Shown here: one piece after another, positions 1 through 25,489 of the stretch | Numbering within the stretch: position 1 is the first letter of the stretch | How the letters are laid out: each line of letters starts with the position of its first letter | Origin: Sphingobium fontiphilum | Lineage (GTDB): Bacteria > Pseudomonadota > Alphaproteobacteria > Sphingomonadales > Sphingomonadaceae | NCBI RefSeq assembly: GCF_014196635.1 | Contig: NZ_JACIEB010000005.1 | Location: 249,001 to 313,000 of the forward strand | DNA length: 64,000 bases | Reading direction: 5' to 3' | Made by a program: the position numbers and the translations under genes | Notes under the pieces: generated by a model | What the model saw: only the letters and a program-made list of their open reading frames with translations | Told to the model about the DNA's origin: nothing | The model's database searches: none

Positions 1-765
1 ACCGTTCTGGACGAAGACCCCGCCAGCTATCTGGCCGGGCGCGCCAACGTCTATCCCATGGCAATCGGCCGTTCGCACTTCAGCGAAGTGTTGCCGGTGC
101 ACAGTATCGATCTGGGCTGGACCTCCAATGCGCTTCACTGGATGAGCCGCAATCCCTGTGCGGTGCCCGACCACGGCTGGGGCGTGTTCAGCGCCGACCC
201 GGCGGTGCGTGCCGCGATCGACGCGCAGCTTGATGCCGATTGGGTGGCGTTCCTGCACGCACGGGCGCGCGAGATGCGCCCCGGTGGGCGTCTGGTCTGC
301 CAGTTCATGGGGCGCGGGCCGGATTCGCACGGCTTTGAATGGATGGCGAACGCGTTCTGGCAAAGCTGGGTCGACACCGCCGATGCAGGCCTGCTCAGCC
401 AGGGCGAACTGGAGCGGATCAGCGCCCCTTCGGCCGGGCGGTCCGCCGCCCAGATCGAAGCGCCATTCCGCGATGGTCGCGTGACCGGGCTGCGTCTGGC
501 CGATCTGGCCACGGTGCAGGCGCCCGACCCTTATTGGGATGCCTATCGCAACAGCGGCGATGCGGTGCAGCTTGGCCGGGTCTGGGCCGACATGATGCGC
601 GCGGCCAACGGCCCCAGCTTCGCGGCCGCGCTTGATCCGGGGCGCGATCGTGGCACAGTGCTCGATGCCGTGACCGAAGCGCTTGCCGCAAGGATCGCCG
701 CCGATCCGCAGCAGAACCGTTCGTTCAATGTCATCGTCGTGATCGAAGCCAGTGGCGCGGCGTAA
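1..765 (+). CDS. SAM-dependent carboxyl methyltransferase, SABATH-like (5' truncated by window edge)
   Basis: The reading frame is open from the first base, so the start lies outside the window; 254 residues remain. The motif NVYPMAIGRSHF near the visible start and the segment HSIDLGWTSNALHWMSR just after it are typical of SABATH-family methyltransferases, which transfer methyl from S-adenosylmethionine to small-molecule carboxylates. RPGGRLVCQFMGRG matches the family's beta-strand region following the SAM fold. The ATG at position 58 lies inside this conserved region and is not the likely start. Role inferred: O-methylation of a carboxylic acid intermediate or signal, in the cytoplasm. The gene precedes a P450 by about 80 bases and may share its transcript. 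Family call is confident; substrate unknown. Confidence 0.8.
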   Translation, partial: TVLDEDPASYLAGRANVYPMAIGRSHFSEVLPVHSIDLGWTSNALHWMSRNPCAVPDHGWGVFSADPAVRAAIDAQLDADWVAFLHARAREMRPGGRLVCQFMGRGPDSHGFEWMANAFWQSWVDTADAGLLSQGELERISAPSAGRSAAQIEAPFRDGRVTGLRLADLATVQAPDPYWDAYRNSGDAVQLGRVWADMMRAANGPSFAAALDPGRDRGTVLDAVTEALAARIAADPQQNRSFNVIVVIEASGAA

Positions 766-12586: not shown

Positions 12587-13975
12587 TCACGCTTCGGCCA
12601 TCAGGTTGTAGTAGGCCATCCACCAGTTCCACTGGGTATCGTCCTTGGTGAAGCCGGGATAGAGCAGACCGCCGCCCTTCCAGCCTTCGGGACGTTCGTG
12701 CCCGTGCAGCGCCTGATATTTGAGGGTGATGTCCTTGCTGACCACGCCGCGCGCGTTGCGCATGATCTGCGGCCAGGTGTCGGCATCGTCCTGTTCGATG
12801 ACGCCCGACGTGCCGGTCTGCTGGATGCTGTTCTGCAGCATGTCGCGCTTCACCTGTTCGGGGGCATCCTTTTCCGCGAAGATGAAGTTGACGAACTCCA
12901 CCTTGTCCGGCCCGCGCGGGACGTATGTGTGCAGCGCCAGTGCGCCCGACGAACCGCCATCGGTGCGCGGTGCGAAGATGAAGGCCACGAGGATGTTCGG
13001 GAACAGGCCGCCGACCTGCGGCGGGATGGTGGCGAGCTGTTCGACCTGATCGGGCGACAGGTTGTTGAACAACTGCGGGATCAGTTCCTTGGTGATGCCC
13101 GGAGGCGGCAGCATCTGCAGGCGTTCCTCGACCGACTTGCCTTCGAAGCTGATGTCCGAGAACATCTTGAAGGTCTGCGCCGCTTCGAGGCAGCGCAGCG
13201 AGTGGCCCTGTTCGCAGCTCACGTCCACGCCGTACATGCCCGGCGCGTTGTCGTAGATCGATTCGGGCGTGCCGCCCATCACGCCGCCTTCCATCAGCGA
13301 GCGATGGAGCGTGAGGGTGTGGAAGCCGTCCGAACCGGACTGTTCACCGGGAATCTTCCAGTTGCACGGCAGGATGAAACGCTGCGGCGGGCCAAGCAGT
13401 TCAAGCCCCGAATCGGTGCGGCAGAAAAGCTGGTCGAGATAGTATTTCATGTCGCCGAGGTAATCGTCGAACGACGGGCCATCGATGTTCCAGGTGGCAA
13501 AGATCAGGCCGCCGTAGACTTCGACGCGCGCCTTCTTGAGGCCCAGCTTGTCCTTGGTCAGAAGGTTGCCGTGCATCTGCTCCTTTTCCACCGGCGCACC
13601 GATGAAGCTGCCGTCCGGGCGGAAAGCCCAGCCGTGATAGATGCAGCGGTGGGCATGGGCGTTGCCCGCTTCGGCGGTGCACACCTTCATGCCGCGGTGG
13701 GGGCAGACGTTGAGCGAAACATGGATTTCGTTGTTGCGGTCGCGCGTGACGATGACCTGGTCTTCACCCATGTCGCGCACCACGAAATCGCCAGCATTGG
13801 GGATTTCGGTGTCGTGGCCAAGCAAAAGCCACGTCTTGGCGAACACACGCTCCATTTCGAGCTTGTACAGCTCTTCATCGCTCATCACCCGCAGGGCAAC
13901 TTCGTAGGAGTCCCGCTTGACCAGATCGTCAAGTGTCGCGCCGTCAGACAGCGTGAAAGTTGCTTTTTGCAGCAT
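12587..13975 (-). CDS. Rieske non-heme iron dioxygenase alpha subunit
   Basis: 462 residues from ATG 13975, chosen because GGAGAGG lies about 8 bases upstream; longer in-frame starts run through the inverted repeat. The Rieske cluster ligands are C91-x-H93 (CPHRG) and C111-x2-H114 (CIYHGW). The mononuclear iron site is in GSDGFHTLTLH (Asp, His, His with H-x4-H spacing). It inserts oxygen into an aromatic or alicyclic ring. It is the first gene of the minus-strand operon alpha-beta-reductase-SDR-TetR-flavoprotein. A 12-bp-arm inverted repeat sits 36-66 bases upstream of the start. Confidence 0.95.
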   Translation of the reverse strand: MLQKATFTLSDGATLDDLVKRDSYEVALRVMSDEELYKLEMERVFAKTWLLLGHDTEIPNAGDFVVRDMGEDQVIVTRDRNNEIHVSLNVCPHRGMKVCTAEAGNAHAHRCIYHGWAFRPDGSFIGAPVEKEQMHGNLLTKDKLGLKKARVEVYGGLIFATWNIDGPSFDDYLGDMKYYLDQLFCRTDSGLELLGPPQRFILPCNWKIPGEQSGSDGFHTLTLHRSLMEGGVMGGTPESIYDNAPGMYGVDVSCEQGHSLRCLEAAQTFKMFSDISFEGKSVEERLQMLPPPGITKELIPQLFNNLSPDQVEQLATIPPQVGGLFPNILVAFIFAPRTDGGSSGALALHTYVPRGPDKVEFVNFIFAEKDAPEQVKRDMLQNSIQQTGTSGVIEQDDADTWPQIMRNARGVVSKDITLKYQALHGHERPEGWKGGGLLYPGFTKDDTQWNWWMAYYNLMAEA

Positions 13976-14010
13976 GATCCTCTCCATCGGAAAATTCAGT
14001 AATGTGCTTG

Positions 14011-14041
14011 TACATGTTGAACCAAAGGTGTTCAACATGTA
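14011..14041. promoter_or_regulatory. Perfect inverted repeat, probable operator
   Basis: TACATGTTGAAC (14011-14022) and its exact reverse complement GTTCAACATGTA (14030-14041) flank a 7-base spacer. The element is AT-rich compared with its surroundings and lies in the 91-base gap between two divergent genes, the dioxygenase alpha subunit and the ferredoxin. It could be a shared operator for a dimeric regulator such as the TetR at 9388. A transcription terminator is unlikely because the position is upstream of both genes. Confidence 0.7.
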
Positions 14042-14066
14042 ATTGGTGCCCGGAGAGGAGGAACGC

Positions 14067-14273
14067 ATGTCCAAACGCTTGAAAGTTGTAATCGATAAGC
14101 CCGCATGTTGCGGCTACGGCGTCTGCGCCGAAATATGCCCGGAGGTATACAAGCTCGACGAGAACGGCATCGTCTATGTCGATGACGAAATCGTCCCCGA
14201 AGGCCTGGAAGACCGCGCCCGCGAAGGCGCCGATGCCTGCCCGCAGGCCGCGCTGGCCATCGTCGAAGCCTGA
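14067..14273 (+). CDS. Small cubane (3Fe-4S/4Fe-4S) ferredoxin
   Basis: 68 residues starting at 14067 after GGAGAGGAGGAACGC; an earlier in-frame codon is less well placed. Cluster motif PACCGYGVCAEICPEVY followed by ACPQAALAI: Cys-x2-Tyr-x2-Cys-x3-Cys-Pro and a distal Cys-Pro. The usual second ligand of the CxxCxxC motif is a tyrosine, as expected for [3Fe-4S]-type ferredoxins that serve P450s and some Rieske dioxygenases. It is divergent from the dioxygenase operon and very probably carries electrons from the 10802 reductase to the dioxygenase; the P450 at 848 is a second possible client. Confidence 0.9.
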   Translation: MSKRLKVVIDKPACCGYGVCAEICPEVYKLDENGIVYVDDEIVPEGLEDRAREGADACPQAALAIVEA

Positions 14274-14294
14274 TTCGCTGCGCCATTTCGCAAG

Positions 14295-14335
14295 GGAGGC
14301 CGCGGCCGGCATTGCGCCGCCGCAGCCTCCTTTTT
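14295..14335. terminator. Bidirectional terminator hairpin
   Basis: A 12-bp stem with one mismatch (GGAGGCCGCGGC with GCCGCAGCCTCC), followed on the plus strand by TTTTT. It lies between the convergent ferredoxin and second Rieske oxygenase genes. Confidence 0.8.
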
Positions 14336-14346
14336 GCGTTGTGGCC

Positions 14347-15552
14347 TCAGCGCTGCATCTGCCCGGACAGCACTTGCGCGACGCGCTGCGATTCGGGAAT
14401 CGCGTCTGCGCCGATACGGCGATCGACCTCTTCCTCAAACCAGTAGAGCGCGCGTTCCTGGTAGCCGAATCGCAACTGGGGAATCGTGCCCTGTTCCAGC
14501 GATTGCTGGATCGAGCGGAACAGGCACAGGTCTTCGGACAGGATGTTGCGCACGATGCCGTTCATCGCCTGCCAGTGTTCGCGATCCGCGTCGCTGTCCA
14601 CGTCCCAGCCCATCAGGCGCACTTCCATGATCGACTTATCCGGCCCGGCGGGCCAGAAAGACTGCAGCGAGAAACCGCCGGGGTCGAGCGCGAAGAACGT
14701 GTTGGGGAAGGTCGGCAGCGCGATGGTGCACTGGCTGAACACGTCGGCCACGTCATCGGGCTTGTACAAGTCTGCCTCGAAGATCGTGTTGCCCTTCTTC
14801 TTGCGCGTGGCAAAGCGCATGTGGCCGTTGGCAAACAGCGCAACGACGAAGCTTGGCGAATCGAGGTAGGGCGCGATCGATTTGGCGTGGACCGTGGCGA
14901 CGTGGTAAATTTCCAGGAAATTGTGCAGCGCCAGCTTCCAGTTGCAGTCCATTTCGATCAGCAGGCGTTCCTTCACAACCATCTTCTCGATCGGATAGCC
15001 TTCCTTCTGCGGCGCCTGCGGCGCCATGAAATCGGCCAGCGGTTCGGCCGCTTCGTCGAAGTTGATGAAGATGAGCCCGCGATCCACTTCGCAGCGCACC
15101 GGCAGCAGCCCGTTCTCGGCCTTGTCGAGACAGGTGAAATCGTGCTGATCGGGCACCGATTTCAGTTCGCCTTCCAGCGAATAGCCCCAGGCGTGATAGG
15201 GACACACGAAGCGCATCGCCTTGCCCGAATGCTGCAGCAGCAGGGCCGAGCCGCGATGGCGGCAGGCATTGTGGAAGGCGCGGATCGCACCGTCCTTCCC
15301 GCGCGAGATGATCACCGACTTTTCGAGCTGCTCGAACAGGAAGTAAGAGCCGGGTGCGGGCAGTTCGGAAACATGGCCGACCTGCAGCCAGGCCCGCATC
15401 CACAGGCCGTCGTGTTCCAGCTTCGCAAAGCCGGGATCGGTATAGCGCGATGCCGGGATCGGCGGGAGATAAGGGAAATCGTCCGGGTGTTCGGCGCGGA
15501 TAAGCTGCGCTTCCATGGTCCGGCGCAAATGTTCCAGAGTATCGGTACGCAT
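14347..15552 (-). CDS. Rieske oxygenase (large subunit-type), second copy
   Basis: 401 residues. Rieske ligands are C97-x-H99 (CRHRG) and C117-x2-H120 (CPYHAWGY). The iron site is E214-IY-H217-x4-H222 (NFLEIYHVATVH), with Glu in the bridging position that is Asp in many relatives. It belongs to the choline/carnitine-monooxygenase-like or phenylpropionate dioxygenase-like branch and has no classic beta subunit next to it; instead an NTF2-like protein gene lies 53 bases upstream in the same transcript (15606-16049). That protein could act as a beta-like partner or as an isomerase. The electron donor may be shared with the first dioxygenase. Confidence 0.93.
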   Translation of the reverse strand: MRTDTLEHLRRTMEAQLIRAEHPDDFPYLPPIPASRYTDPGFAKLEHDGLWMRAWLQVGHVSELPAPGSYFLFEQLEKSVIISRGKDGAIRAFHNACRHRGSALLLQHSGKAMRFVCPYHAWGYSLEGELKSVPDQHDFTCLDKAENGLLPVRCEVDRGLIFINFDEAAEPLADFMAPQAPQKEGYPIEKMVVKERLLIEMDCNWKLALHNFLEIYHVATVHAKSIAPYLDSPSFVVALFANGHMRFATRKKKGNTIFEADLYKPDDVADVFSQCTIALPTFPNTFFALDPGGFSLQSFWPAGPDKSIMEVRLMGWDVDSDADREHWQAMNGIVRNILSEDLCLFRSIQQSLEQGTIPQLRFGYQERALYWFEEEVDRRIGADAIPESQRVAQVLSGQMQR

Positions 15553-21394: not shown

Positions 21395-22450
21395 TCAGCC
21401 CTGCGCCTTGGCCGCCGCGACGAGCTGGAACAGCCCGCCATAATAATACATCAGCTTTTCCATCGACAGGTCGCGGTAGGGCGTCATCGGGGCGAGCGAA
21501 TCGACTACGTCCCAATATGGTTCGATCTGTTCGAGCACTTCCTCGACCGAACCGCAGGCGCAGAACGCCAGCACCATTTCATCGGACACATTGTGCGCCA
21601 CCTTCGACACGTCGCCATGGTCACCCAGCGCAAGCTGGCAGGCGCGGGCCTGATCGCCAAAGCCCTGCTTTTCGAAGAACGGTTCGTACTGCTTGTAGCC
21701 GGAATAGGCGGCAACTGTGGCACGGGCGTCGTCGATCGCCTGCTGCTTGTCGGGGTTGATGGCAATCCACGGCCAGGCGTTGATTTCGATATCCTCGCGT
21801 TTGCGGCCGTGCTTGGCCAGCGCGGCTTCGATCACCGGCTTTTGCACCTTGGAGGTGTATTCGGCCGACCACAGCGCGTGGACCATCAGGCCATCGGCGA
21901 TTTCGATAGCCAGATCGGTCATCTTTTCCTGCAAGGCGGCGATCCAGATCGGAATGCGTTCGCGCACCGGCGGCGCGGTCATCATCATTTCCTGGAAATC
22001 GGCCTTGAAGTACTGGCCTTCGTAGGGGTCCAGCCCCTTGTGTCCGTTGGCGATGATATAGCGCACCACATCGACGATTTCGCGCAAGTGGCCCAGCGGC
22101 TTGGTCTTGGGCATACCGTACATGCCTTCTACCGCGGAGGGGATGCTGCTGCCCAGCCCCAGGATGAAGCGACCGCCGCTGATCCGGTCCACGTCCATCG
22201 CGGCATAGGCGGTTTCGACCGGGCTGCGGGTGCCGGCAATGGCGATGCCAGTGCCCAGCTTGAGCGTTTCGGTGACGGTCGCCGTGGCCGCCAGCGGCAC
22301 GAACGGCGGACCGTAGATTTGCAGCACGAATACGCCTTCGAAGCCGAGGGCTTCCATCTGGCGCGAGGTTTCGGTGAGCTGCGCGGCGGGCAGGACCGGC
22401 ATCGTCCCCCAGAAACGGCGCGGTCCACCGGTGGCGTTGGTCTTGGGCAT
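21395..22450 (-). CDS. LLM-class flavin/F420-dependent oxidoreductase
   Basis: 351 residues of the luciferase-like TIM barrel. GTMPVLPAAQLTETSRQMEALG, the GTGIAIAGTRSPVETAYAAM segment and GRFILGLGSS are classic for the family; PIWIAALQEKMTDLAIEIADG follows. It lies about 175 bases downstream of the Rieske-less gene (22626) on the same strand, but a hairpin at 22571-22602 may separate the transcripts. It may supply reduced flavin chemistry or act on the oxygenase product. Substrate unknown. Confidence 0.88.
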   Translation of the reverse strand: MPKTNATGGPRRFWGTMPVLPAAQLTETSRQMEALGFEGVFVLQIYGPPFVPLAATATVTETLKLGTGIAIAGTRSPVETAYAAMDVDRISGGRFILGLGSSIPSAVEGMYGMPKTKPLGHLREIVDVVRYIIANGHKGLDPYEGQYFKADFQEMMMTAPPVRERIPIWIAALQEKMTDLAIEIADGLMVHALWSAEYTSKVQKPVIEAALAKHGRKREDIEINAWPWIAINPDKQQAIDDARATVAAYSGYKQYEPFFEKQGFGDQARACQLALGDHGDVSKVAHNVSDEMVLAFCACGSVEEVLEQIEPYWDVVDSLAPMTPYRDLSMEKLMYYYGGLFQLVAAAKAQG

Positions 22451-22625: not shown

Positions 22626-23708
22626 TCAGAAGCGGAACAGTTCCTTGCGCAGGCCGATGATATCGCTGCAATCGGCGCTGACATTGTCGCGGTAGGCGAA
22701 ATCGCCTTCAGCCTGGCGCTGGGCCAGTTCCATCATCAGCAGGCGGTAACGCTGGCCTGCCTGATCGAACCGCGAATGGAGATCCTTGCGCGGGTCGATA
22801 TCCATATAGCGCGGGCTTTGCGGGTTGGTCATCGAACTGTCCTGCCGCGAAACCTTGTAGCCGGCCTTGGGCATGACATGGCGGAACATCAGGCCCGCGT
22901 TCGACGTGTTCATCACCATTTCCATGCGCGTGCGGTCCCGCGATTCGGGGGTGCAGGGATGGAACAGGGGCACATCGTCGCCCGGCGAGAAGCGCCCATA
23001 GGCAATCGCGCAGTGCGAACGCAGGTAGATGCGGATGACCTGGCGCACGTTCTGCGTCGGCTGGCGGATGCCGCTGAAGAACTTCATGATCGGCGCAACC
23101 GACTTGTTCACCAGCGTGCGCACCATGGTAATGGTTTCGCTGTCGTAGAAGACTTCCACGTCTTCGCTGTCGGACTTTTCATCGCCCACGACATCGGCAT
23201 GGAGAAAGTCCGCGTGCGTCAGGTCGATCAGGTTTTCGAGGCTGATCGGCGCCGAACAATCGAAGCGGATCGTGGCGGTCATGTGCTTGGGCAGGCCGCC
23301 GTTGGGTGGCAGGAACGGCAGGCTGGGCAGGTGCGCAGGGTCGGCAGCTTCCGGGCGGCCAAACCAGCCCCAGATCAGGCCATAATGTTCGATCACCGGA
23401 TAGCGGCCGTGCGCATCGGTATAGGGGCTTTTTTCGCGGGTGACGATTTCCTGCGGGTGGAACTCCGACGCCACGGCCTTGCCATTTTCGCGCCAGATGT
23501 AGAACGGGTGCGAATAGACCGCGCGGCGGACCGGCTTCTTGCCGATGGCGTGATCGTGGGCCAGCGGGAACCAGCTGTCGCGCATCACGATATCGTGCGG
23601 CACCCAGTTGTTCACCGCGTTGAGCGAGGGGCGCGGTGCGCGCGGGGCTGCGGTGGTTTCGGTGTGATCCGTATCCGAAGCAAAGGGGCGATCGGCGACT
23701 TCAAGCAT
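22626..23708 (-). CDS. Rieske-oxygenase-like protein lacking the Rieske cluster
   Basis: 360 residues. The N-terminal part aligns by eye with Rieske oxygenases: DSWFPLAHDHAIGKKPVRRA (about 44-63), then FYIWRENGKAVASEF. Where CPHRG...CxxH should follow, the sequence goes directly to HPQEIVTREKSPYTDAHGRY, and resumes at YGLIWGWFG (109-117); both Cys-x-His and Cys-x2-His loops are absent. The mononuclear iron motif is intact: E158-NLI-D162-LT-H165-x4-H170. It could still bind catalytic iron but needs electrons from another Rieske centre. The gene upstream, 18 bases away in the same operon, encodes exactly such a domain. RBS AAGGAGA precedes the ATG. Confidence 0.85.
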   Translation of the reverse strand: MLEVADRPFASDTDHTETTAAPRAPRPSLNAVNNWVPHDIVMRDSWFPLAHDHAIGKKPVRRAVYSHPFYIWRENGKAVASEFHPQEIVTREKSPYTDAHGRYPVIEHYGLIWGWFGRPEAADPAHLPSLPFLPPNGGLPKHMTATIRFDCSAPISLENLIDLTHADFLHADVVGDEKSDSEDVEVFYDSETITMVRTLVNKSVAPIMKFFSGIRQPTQNVRQVIRIYLRSHCAIAYGRFSPGDDVPLFHPCTPESRDRTRMEMVMNTSNAGLMFRHVMPKAGYKVSRQDSSMTNPQSPRYMDIDPRKDLHSRFDQAGQRYRLLMMELAQRQAEGDFAYRDNVSADCSDIIGLRKELFRF

Positions 23709-23726
23709 GGGGGTCTCCTTGGAAAG

Positions 23727-24683
23727 TCAGGCGGCGGCCGAAACCGAAGAATCCGGCGAAACGGAAGGGTCAGACGAAACGGGTGTGGCGGGCAGGATCG
23801 CTTCGCGCAATTGCTGCGCTCGGTGCGATGCCGAACGGATCAGCACGCGCAGTGCCGCAGCATCGACGTTTTCACGCACCGCGAATGAACCCTTGAGCCG
23901 CAGAGCCAGCGCGTGGCGACCCTTCAGCTCTTCGCCCAGCCGCGCGCGCCAGCGCACTTGCGTGACGCCGCGCGCCGCCGCCACCGGCGCGATCTGCGCG
24001 GTCAGCAGGGTGCGGAAACTGTCATCGCGCAGCACGGCTTGGGTTTCGCCGGTATCGGGGCGGGTGCGGGTGATGAGGGTGATCGGGAACTCTGCCGTGG
24101 CATAGGACGGCAGGTGCAGCTTGCCCCACTGGCAGAAGCGTTCCATCACCAGCAGACCATTTTCCTCGCGCAGTTCGGACATCAGATACGGCGTGAACTG
24201 CACCCCGCGGATGTCCAGCACCAGGCCGGGATCATCGAACAGGGTATCGACCCATTCGCCCTGCGAAAGGCTGACGTGGGCCGTGCCGTTGAGCGGGAAG
24301 GTTTCATCCAGCACCGGGGCGGGCGGAGCCGAAGCCTTGTCAAGGTTGACCGAGACGAAACCGCCGCTTTCCGCCACGGCATAGGCAATGGCCTTGTACA
24401 CCGGCGGAAACCGCTGCTCGTCCTTCATGTTCGGGATTTCTTTCAGGCGGCCCGATTCGCCATCATAGCTCCAGCCGTGATAGCCGCACTGCAGCCAGCC
24501 GTTGTCGCGCACACAGCCGCGCGAAAGCGGGGCGCGGCGGTGGGGACAGCGATCTTCCAGTGCGCGGGCAATGCCTTGCGCATCGCGCCACAGCACCACC
24601 GGCTGATCGCCGACATCGACGGCCAGCGGCTTGGCCGAGGTCACTTCCTCGCTACGCGCAACTTTCCACCAGGGACTCGCCAT
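23727..24683 (-). CDS. Rieske-domain protein lacking the mononuclear iron site
   Basis: 318 residues from ATG 24683. Rieske ligands C46-P-H48 and C66-x2-H69 are complete in a normal N-terminal domain (DRCPHRRAPLSRG, CGYHGW). In the C-terminal half, the place of the iron motif reads GEWVDTLFDDPGLVLD (142 onward): the Asp position is there but both facial-triad histidines are gone. The protein ends in a Ser/Pro-rich tail, SSDPSVSPDSSVS. It is the first gene of the operon with the Rieske-less partner at 22626. Together the two would reconstitute one complete set of redox centres. An ATG at 24725 is possible but would overlap the operator. Confidence 0.85.
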   Translation of the reverse strand: MASPWWKVARSEEVTSAKPLAVDVGDQPVVLWRDAQGIARALEDRCPHRRAPLSRGCVRDNGWLQCGYHGWSYDGESGRLKEIPNMKDEQRFPPVYKAIAYAVAESGGFVSVNLDKASAPPAPVLDETFPLNGTAHVSLSQGEWVDTLFDDPGLVLDIRGVQFTPYLMSELREENGLLVMERFCQWGKLHLPSYATAEFPITLITRTRPDTGETQAVLRDDSFRTLLTAQIAPVAAARGVTQVRWRARLGEELKGRHALALRLKGSFAVRENVDAAALRVLIRSASHRAQQLREAILPATPVSSDPSVSPDSSVSAAA

Positions 24684-24754: not shown

Positions 24755-25489
24755 ATGACCGCAGCAGACCCTGAAAAGCCCGTGGCATTGGCTTCCGGGC
24801 GCAAGGCGGCCCCTCGGCCGCGCGGCCGCCCGCCCGCCGATGCGGCTCGCGCCGTGCCCGAAGAACGGCTGCTGCACCTGGCCTTCGAAAGTTTTGCCGA
24901 GTTTGGCTATGAAGGCACCACGGTGCGCGAACTGGCCAAGCGGCTGGGCGTCAGCCACAACCTGCTCAACGTCCGCTTCGGATCGAAGGCCGATCTGTGG
25001 CGGCGCGCGGTGGACTGGCGCGTGGCCCGGTTTGGCGCGCCGGTCTTTGCCGTGTTCGAGCGGACCGACCTTGATCCCGAAAATCGCCTACGCCTGTTGG
25101 TCCATCGCTTTTGCGGCTGGGCGGCGGAAAATCCCAGCTTCATCAGTGTCAGCCATGCCGAAGGGCGGCGCACGACCTGGCGGCTGGACTATCTCGTTTC
25201 GCTTTACATTCGGCCGTTCAAGCACAGCCTTGACGCCCTGTTCGCGCAAATTGAGGCGACCCGCCCGATGCGGCCGATTTCCTCGTCGGCGTTCATGGCC
25301 ATGCTGGTACAGGGCGTGGGCTTCTATTTCGCCTCCACTCCCATGCTCGAAGCCCTGGGCGTGGCAGACGAATCCGCCCCAGAAGCGATCCCGCAGCGCG
25401 TTGCCGAGTTTGCCGATACCTTGCTGGCCGGGGTGCTTGGCCCGGCGCCGTCCGTCCTGGAAGATCGCCGGGCCAGCGCGCCTGCCTGA
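24755..25489 (+). CDS. TetR-family transcriptional regulator
   Basis: 244 residues from ATG 24755. A basic, proline-rich N-terminal tail (PRPRGRPP) precedes a clear TetR helix-turn-helix, TVRELAKRLGVSHNLLNVRFGSKADLW, at about residues 53-80. The C-terminal domain is of the ligand-binding type. It is divergent from the two split-Rieske genes and separated from them by an inverted repeat, so it is the likely regulator of that operon. Its stop lies two bases from the stop of the convergent flavoprotein gene at 25492. Confidence 0.93.
   Translation: MTAADPEKPVALASGRKAAPRPRGRPPADAARAVPEERLLHLAFESFAEFGYEGTTVRELAKRLGVSHNLLNVRFGSKADLWRRAVDWRVARFGAPVFAVFERTDLDPENRLRLLVHRFCGWAAENPSFISVSHAEGRRTTWRLDYLVSLYIRPFKHSLDALFAQIEATRPMRPISSSAFMAMLVQGVGFYFASTPMLEALGVADESAPEAIPQRVAEFADTLLAGVLGPAPSVLEDRRASAPA

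Follow-up and report, generated by a model that had tools for sequence, protein, structure and literature searches.

Adjacent Rieske oxygenase paralogues with complementary metal-site loss in Sphingobium fontiphilum and other Proteobacteria, a probable heteromeric oxygenase

We analyzed a 64,000-nucleotide stretch of the genome of Sphingobium fontiphilum (NCBI RefSeq assembly GCF_014196635.1, contig NZ_JACIEB010000005.1, positions 249,001 to 313,000; hereafter the window, numbered from its first letter). Two neighboring genes in it, A and B, encode paralogues of Rieske oxygenases that have each lost a different metal site. Protein A has the ligands of the Rieske [2Fe-2S] cluster and no iron site, and protein B has the iron site and no cluster. 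Very probably, A and B together form one heteromeric Rieske non-heme iron oxygenase that requires both subunits, the cluster of A feeding the iron of B. This reading draws on the complementarity of the ligands, predicted full-length folds, the strict joint occurrence and co-evolution of the two genes, and selection acting on each of the four domains. The genes and their metal-site segments are as follows.

23727..24683, minus strand: gene A, cluster-bearing, iron-less Rieske oxygenase paralogue, 318 amino acids (Pfam, AlphaFold2 (AF2) model)
24477..24548, minus strand: Rieske [2Fe-2S] ligand segment of A, C46-P-H48 ... C66-x2-H69 (alignment)
24228..24263, minus strand: former iron-site segment of A, residues 141-152, GEWVDTLFDDP region, both His gone and D150 retained (alignment with ordinary oxygenases)
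23709..23726, minus strand: 18-base spacer with an AAGGAG ribosome-binding-type sequence ahead of B (sequence)
22626..23708, minus strand: gene B, iron-bearing, cluster-less Rieske oxygenase paralogue, 360 amino acids (Pfam, AF2 model)
23400..23459, minus strand: shortened loops in place of the Cys-x-His and Cys-x2-His segments, B residues ~84-103 (alignment)
23199..23237, minus strand: iron-site motif of B, E158-N159-L-I-D162-L-T-H165-A-D-F-L-H170 (alignment)
22839..22841, minus strand: D290 of B, third facial-triad ligand (aligned with the Asp of 65/65 ordinary oxygenases)

Gene A lies upstream of B, and 18 bases separate its TGA from the start codon ATG of B; the co-orientation, coordinates and spacing given in a preliminary description of this DNA check out. 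Both genes share a reading frame in the window, separated by a single TGA. Across relatives the spacer is mostly short and the frame relation variable.

Domain searches divided the two proteins cleanly. The only Pfam match of A was Rieske (1.5e-25), with no catalytic-domain model matched, and the same Rieske model matched all 26 A sequences. The only match of B was VanA_C (1.3e-32), the catalytic domain of vanillate-demethylase-type oxygenases; no Rieske model matched it. Among 25 B sequences, VanA_C was found in every one and Pfam Rieske in none.

We aligned these 26 A and 25 B sequences with a reference set of 65 single-chain Rieske oxygenases of the ordinary kind, taken from related genomes; in each of the 65, both the Cys-His-Cys-His and the His-His-Asp sets are complete. 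Every A keeps the four Rieske ligands and the bridging Asp and lacks the His-His-Asp set. One of the 26 has a His in the first iron-His column, and the second His column holds a gap or an Asp. The window's own A has neither of the iron-site histidines and lacks the iron-site aspartate too. All 25 B sequences retain Asn159, Asp162, His165, His170 and Asp290 and show gaps at three of the four cluster-ligand columns; the fourth column is occupied by mixed residues, with His not among the commonest. The iron site of B is thus complete (H165, H170 and D290, with D162 as the bridging residue). In a larger set of 78 non-redundant pairs, C46, H48, C66 and H69 of A and E158, N159, D162, H165, H170 and D290 of B are invariant in 78/78 sequences each.

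The preliminary description had read A as keeping C46/H48/C66/H69 without facial-triad histidines, and B as keeping E158-NLI-D162-LT-H165-x4-H170 with the whole Cys-x-His...Cys-x2-His segment gone. Pfam and the 26-sequence alignment bear out the former, and all 25 B sequences agree with the latter. Its account of the iron site stands for the part from E158 to H170; the third ligand, which it did not name, is D290. We also considered that iron ligands might hide elsewhere in A, or cluster ligands in B, and rejected this: the alignment contains no conserved iron ligands elsewhere in the 26 A sequences, and neither motif reading, Pfam nor alignment revealed a Rieske motif or cluster ligands in any B examined.

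The pairing of A with B is strict. Using an alignment of B, we scanned one genome per species from 84,980 bacterial and archaeal species and found 133 relatives, 80 of which were listed as loci. These fall in Sphingomonadales, other alphaproteobacteria, Pseudomonas and relatives, Burkholderiales, Rhodocyclales and marine gammaproteobacteria. At 79 of the 80 listed loci, the cluster-less B is immediately preceded by an A that carries a Rieske motif, and in the single exception B begins ~100 bases from a contig end. The scan pattern contained the iron motif, so the presence of an iron site in B was partly selected for; the missing cluster and the adjacent A were not. A loose iron-motif pattern hit a few A sequences at non-homologous places, and the ligand alignment is the proper test of that site.

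Orphans were sought in 47 of the whole genomes that hold these loci, with A and B queried separately. They contain 56 A and 56 B, every A beside a B, and no orphan of either kind; one extra B fragment is part of a pair split between contigs. In 299 Sphingomonadaceae genomes, close matches to A and close matches to B fall at the same seven loci. One of the seven is a second, paralogous pair of S. fontiphilum itself, on contig 3 (214789-216794), whose A is 60% and whose B is 80% identical to those in the window. The system is rare: of 398 genomes sampled broadly across phyla, none but the window's showed a full-length A. The most divergent pairs come from two marine gammaproteobacterial genomes, one holding four pairs and the other three, and show the same complementary loss. 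The preliminary description had named lone homologues and sequencing error as possible objections. The 47 genomes yielded none of the former, and the latter is excluded by an identical pattern in every relative examined. A-B is an old, conserved two-gene system, produced by neither decay nor sequencing error.

Two side observations concern the distribution of pairs. The four and three divergent pairs in single marine gammaproteobacterial metagenome-assembled genomes (MAGs) indicate that the system itself diversified by pair duplication. The pair region of a Paraburkholderia sp. MAG resembles that of Novosphingobium resinovorum and has B broken into two frames; it is probably a misbinned contig with a sequencing error.

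Phylogenetic analyses showed that A and B have evolved together. In a quick tree, A forms one clade and B another, each with 100% support in the Shimodaira-Hasegawa-like approximate likelihood ratio test, and their internal branching matches. Pairwise distances among A and among B are correlated with r = 0.96 over the 78 non-redundant pairs, where the permutation maximum was 0.15. The ratio of nonsynonymous to synonymous substitution rates (dN/dS) is 0.01-0.37 in each of the four domains. Even the two dead ones, catalytic in A and Rieske in B, are thus under purifying selection. The matching trees, the distance correlation and the low dN/dS together indicate that the pair is inherited and selected as a unit. 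We had also considered A and B as sister duplicates and did not retain this; each is one clade, and their joint placement among ordinary oxygenases is not settled by the quick tree.

Structure prediction suggests that neither protein is a fragment. The best single-sequence match in the PDB is dicamba monooxygenase for both, through the N-terminal part of A and through the mid-chain of B, including the iron motif. For A alone, AF2 with the 26-sequence alignment gave a mean predicted local distance difference test score (pLDDT) of 87.8 and a predicted template modeling score (pTM) of 0.85. This model aligns with dicamba monooxygenase at Z 21.7 over 279 residues (root mean square deviation (rmsd) 4.2), spanning residues 1-303. 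A is accordingly predicted to be a full-length oxygenase fold with a dead catalytic site, more than a Rieske domain. We modeled the two proteins jointly by reading A and B through the TGA as one 685-residue chain, with 13 paired rows from same-frame relatives, and obtained a pLDDT of 84.9 and a pTM of 0.81 over the 685 residues. The B half aligns with dicamba monooxygenase at Z 28.6 over 283 residues (rmsd 2.7). Dicamba monooxygenase is the closest solved structure to both models. A pTM of 0.81 fits a defined A-B arrangement; independently floating halves would not be expected to reach it. The read-through was a modeling device: functional read-through of the TGA was rejected, as the frame relation varies among relatives. 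Two KshA rows (model range 1..587) were dropped as a supposed mixed A-B domain alignment, since their ranges do not show that.

We propose the following mechanism. A and B would both derive from single-chain enzymes like VanA and dicamba monooxygenase, having kept the whole fold and specialized in opposite directions. The cluster of A would take up electrons, probably from a plant/adrenodoxin-type [2Fe-2S] ferredoxin. A would pack on the catalytic domain of B, with D162 as the bridge between a cluster-ligating His of A and the residues of B that hold the iron, and B would bind Fe(II), O2 and substrate and perform the oxidation. Structurally characterized Rieske oxygenases are 3-fold (C3) symmetric, and the cluster of one subunit passes electrons to the iron of another (PMC12445004). 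Given that an A-B pair has a single intact cluster site and a single intact iron site, transfer from A to B is the natural productive arrangement. The preliminary description had already suggested a heteromer; the complementary ligands, the strict pairing and the joined model (pTM 0.81) speak for it, and from them we infer both the heteromer and the electron transfer. We also lean, with somewhat less conviction, towards a wider view: the bacterial class would be an obligate heteromer of complementary, half-dead, full-length paralogues with a quaternary structure new to Rieske oxygenases, for example a mixed ring or three A-B dimers joined as a trimer, and each dead domain would play a structural part in it.

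Several points weigh against this picture. Three subunits joined head to tail in the canonical ring cannot be alternately A and B; either the assembly departs from this ring or only some of its junctions are productive. D150 of A, the counterpart of the bridging Asp (window 24234-24236), is invariant in 78/78 A sequences even though A has no iron, and a simple A-to-B model leaves it unexplained; it may cap a helix or contact the dead Rieske domain of B. The A-B model is one chain read through a stop. No ferredoxin gene lies beside the pair in the window or in its closest relatives. The physical complex and its activity, the electron path, the stoichiometry, the ferredoxin partner and the substrate class are inferences from sequences and models.

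Other explanations account for parts of these data. A could be a large electron carrier of the Rieske type that serves several oxygenases, and B a non-heme iron enzyme that works independently of a cluster and has only the operon in common with A. Separate Rieske-type ferredoxin carriers do exist, and further Rieske oxygenases encoded in the genome are potential clients of A. The bridging Asp of known oxygenases serves electron transfer from a docked cluster, and B keeps this residue invariant, contrary to what such independence implies. A mere carrier would not need the full catalytic-domain fold that A retains under purifying selection, and the one-to-one pairing, with a separate A for each pair even in multi-pair genomes, and the mirrored trees point to a dedicated partner. 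Although NdmC is a cluster-less oxygenase served by the cluster of another protein (PMC4408171), we regard separate work by A and B as unlikely.

A might instead be a regulatory or structural pseudoenzyme that stabilizes B, its cluster sensing redox state or oxygen rather than feeding the iron. Dead paralogues that activate an active partner are known, such as the prozyme of trypanosomal AdoMetDC (PMC5201418). B would then need some other one-electron donor at the same docking site, having no cluster of its own, whereas the invariance of the four cluster ligands of A and of the bridging Asp of B is what electron transfer predicts; we consider a sensing role very improbable. Finally, each gene seen alone looks damaged, as it would if an intact oxygenase had been duplicated and both copies degraded, or if a frameshift or assembly error had intervened. 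This can hardly be credited, given the same loss in all pairs examined from three proteobacterial classes, a dN/dS well under 1 and the lack of internal stops in the matches. Sequencing error, frameshift and pseudogenes were rejected on the recurrence of the split in independent genomes and on dN/dS. A and B most likely function only together, as a heteromer.

The division of the two sites has precedents, which limit the novelty of the bacterial pair. Kunugi et al. (2013) reportedly described two Micromonas genes, one with the Rieske motif and one with the iron motif, both needed for chlorophyll b. The C-terminal domain of the enzyme concerned, chlorophyllide a oxygenase (CAO), is of the PaO type. 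In Micromonas CAO (MpCAO1 and MpCAO2) the Rieske and iron sites are on two polypeptides (PMC9615114); the in-vitro study of CAO proposed that these assemble as a heterodimer or a trimer of dimers (PMC9615114). The statement in the preliminary description that such an arrangement was not known from described systems was therefore too strong. The A-B alignment shows the same split of the two motifs over two proteins. Unlike this algal chloroplast enzyme with its chlorophyllide substrate, B has VanA_C as its catalytic domain, and the bacterial split looks independent of the Micromonas one.

The preliminary description named NdmC and NdmD as a loose precedent. NdmC of the methylxanthine N7-demethylase NdmCDE is a non-heme iron oxygenase that has no Rieske cluster of its own and is supplied with one by another protein (PMC4408171). 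In that system the reductase NdmD carries the extra cluster as a fusion and the GST-like NdmE is needed, whereas in A-B the cluster is on a full-length oxygenase paralogue. Pfam found no reductase domain in the window's A or in the 26 A sequences, and no GST-like (NdmE-like) family recurs among the neighbors classified. A-B thus differs in anatomy from both Micromonas CAO and NdmCDE, being two complementary full-length VanA-type paralogues without a reductase fusion. Domain order and motifs are those of dicamba monooxygenase (DdmC) and VanA-type alpha3 oxygenases, but these carry both metal sites on one polypeptide in a homotrimer (PMC12445004), whereas here they are on two. Alpha3beta3 ring-hydroxylating dioxygenases such as naphthalene dioxygenase likewise have two different polypeptides per oxygenase; their alpha subunit has both metal sites and beta none, while A-B divides the sites between two alpha-type subunits.

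We found no described bacterial pair of this kind in the open-access papers searched and no NCBIfam equivalog for it. In annotated relatives, A is called a 'Rieske (2Fe-2S) protein' and B an 'oxygenase', as two unrelated single proteins, so that either gene assayed alone would probably look inactive. The pair shows stable subfunctionalization of a metalloenzyme over long evolutionary time. If our reading is true, a natural heteromer with one working site per subunit would isolate the intersubunit cluster-to-iron step, and cluster and iron could be mutated, labeled and reduced separately, free of the background of the other site on the same chain.

The genes directly flanking the pair in the window are the following.

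21395..22450, minus strand: LLM flavin-dependent oxidoreductase (Bac_luciferase), next same-strand gene downstream (Pfam)
24758..25489, plus strand: divergent TetR-type regulator (Pfam TetR_N)

The LLM flavin oxidoreductase family adjoins 31 alphaproteobacterial pairs, and divergent TetR genes adjoin pairs in annotated relatives too. Also recurrent with alphaproteobacterial pairs are a sulfotransferase, a KstD-like FAD dehydrogenase and F420 biosynthesis genes. Several beta- and gammaproteobacterial pairs have CoA-transferases, acyl-CoA dehydrogenases, SDRs and DUF1329/MMPL-type genes alongside. The window also holds a P450, two further Rieske oxygenases and several SDR-type genes. Taken together, these neighborhoods and the window's own genes suggest a catabolic role and, as substrate, a hydrophobic alicyclic compound, terpenoid- or steroid-like.

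As for the electron donor, 34 alphaproteobacterial records, including some duplicates, have a gene for a small Fer2 ([2Fe-2S]) ferredoxin near the pair, and the second pair on contig 3 has one ~1.4 kb upstream. The likeliest donor is a Fer2 ferredoxin rather than a fused reductase. For the window's pair it would have to come from elsewhere, for example from the Fer2 copy beside that second pair.

At 12587-15552 of the window (minus strand), ~7-11 kb away from A and B, are genes for two alpha subunits of ring-hydroxylating oxygenases of the ordinary type, both of which combine a Rieske with a catalytic domain. In Novosphingobium resinovorum and Croceicoccus marinus the pair is carried on large plasmids, with the F420 genes cofC, cofH and npdG and F420-dependent LLM oxidoreductases within ~10 kb of it; in C. 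marinus cofD and cofE are near it as well.
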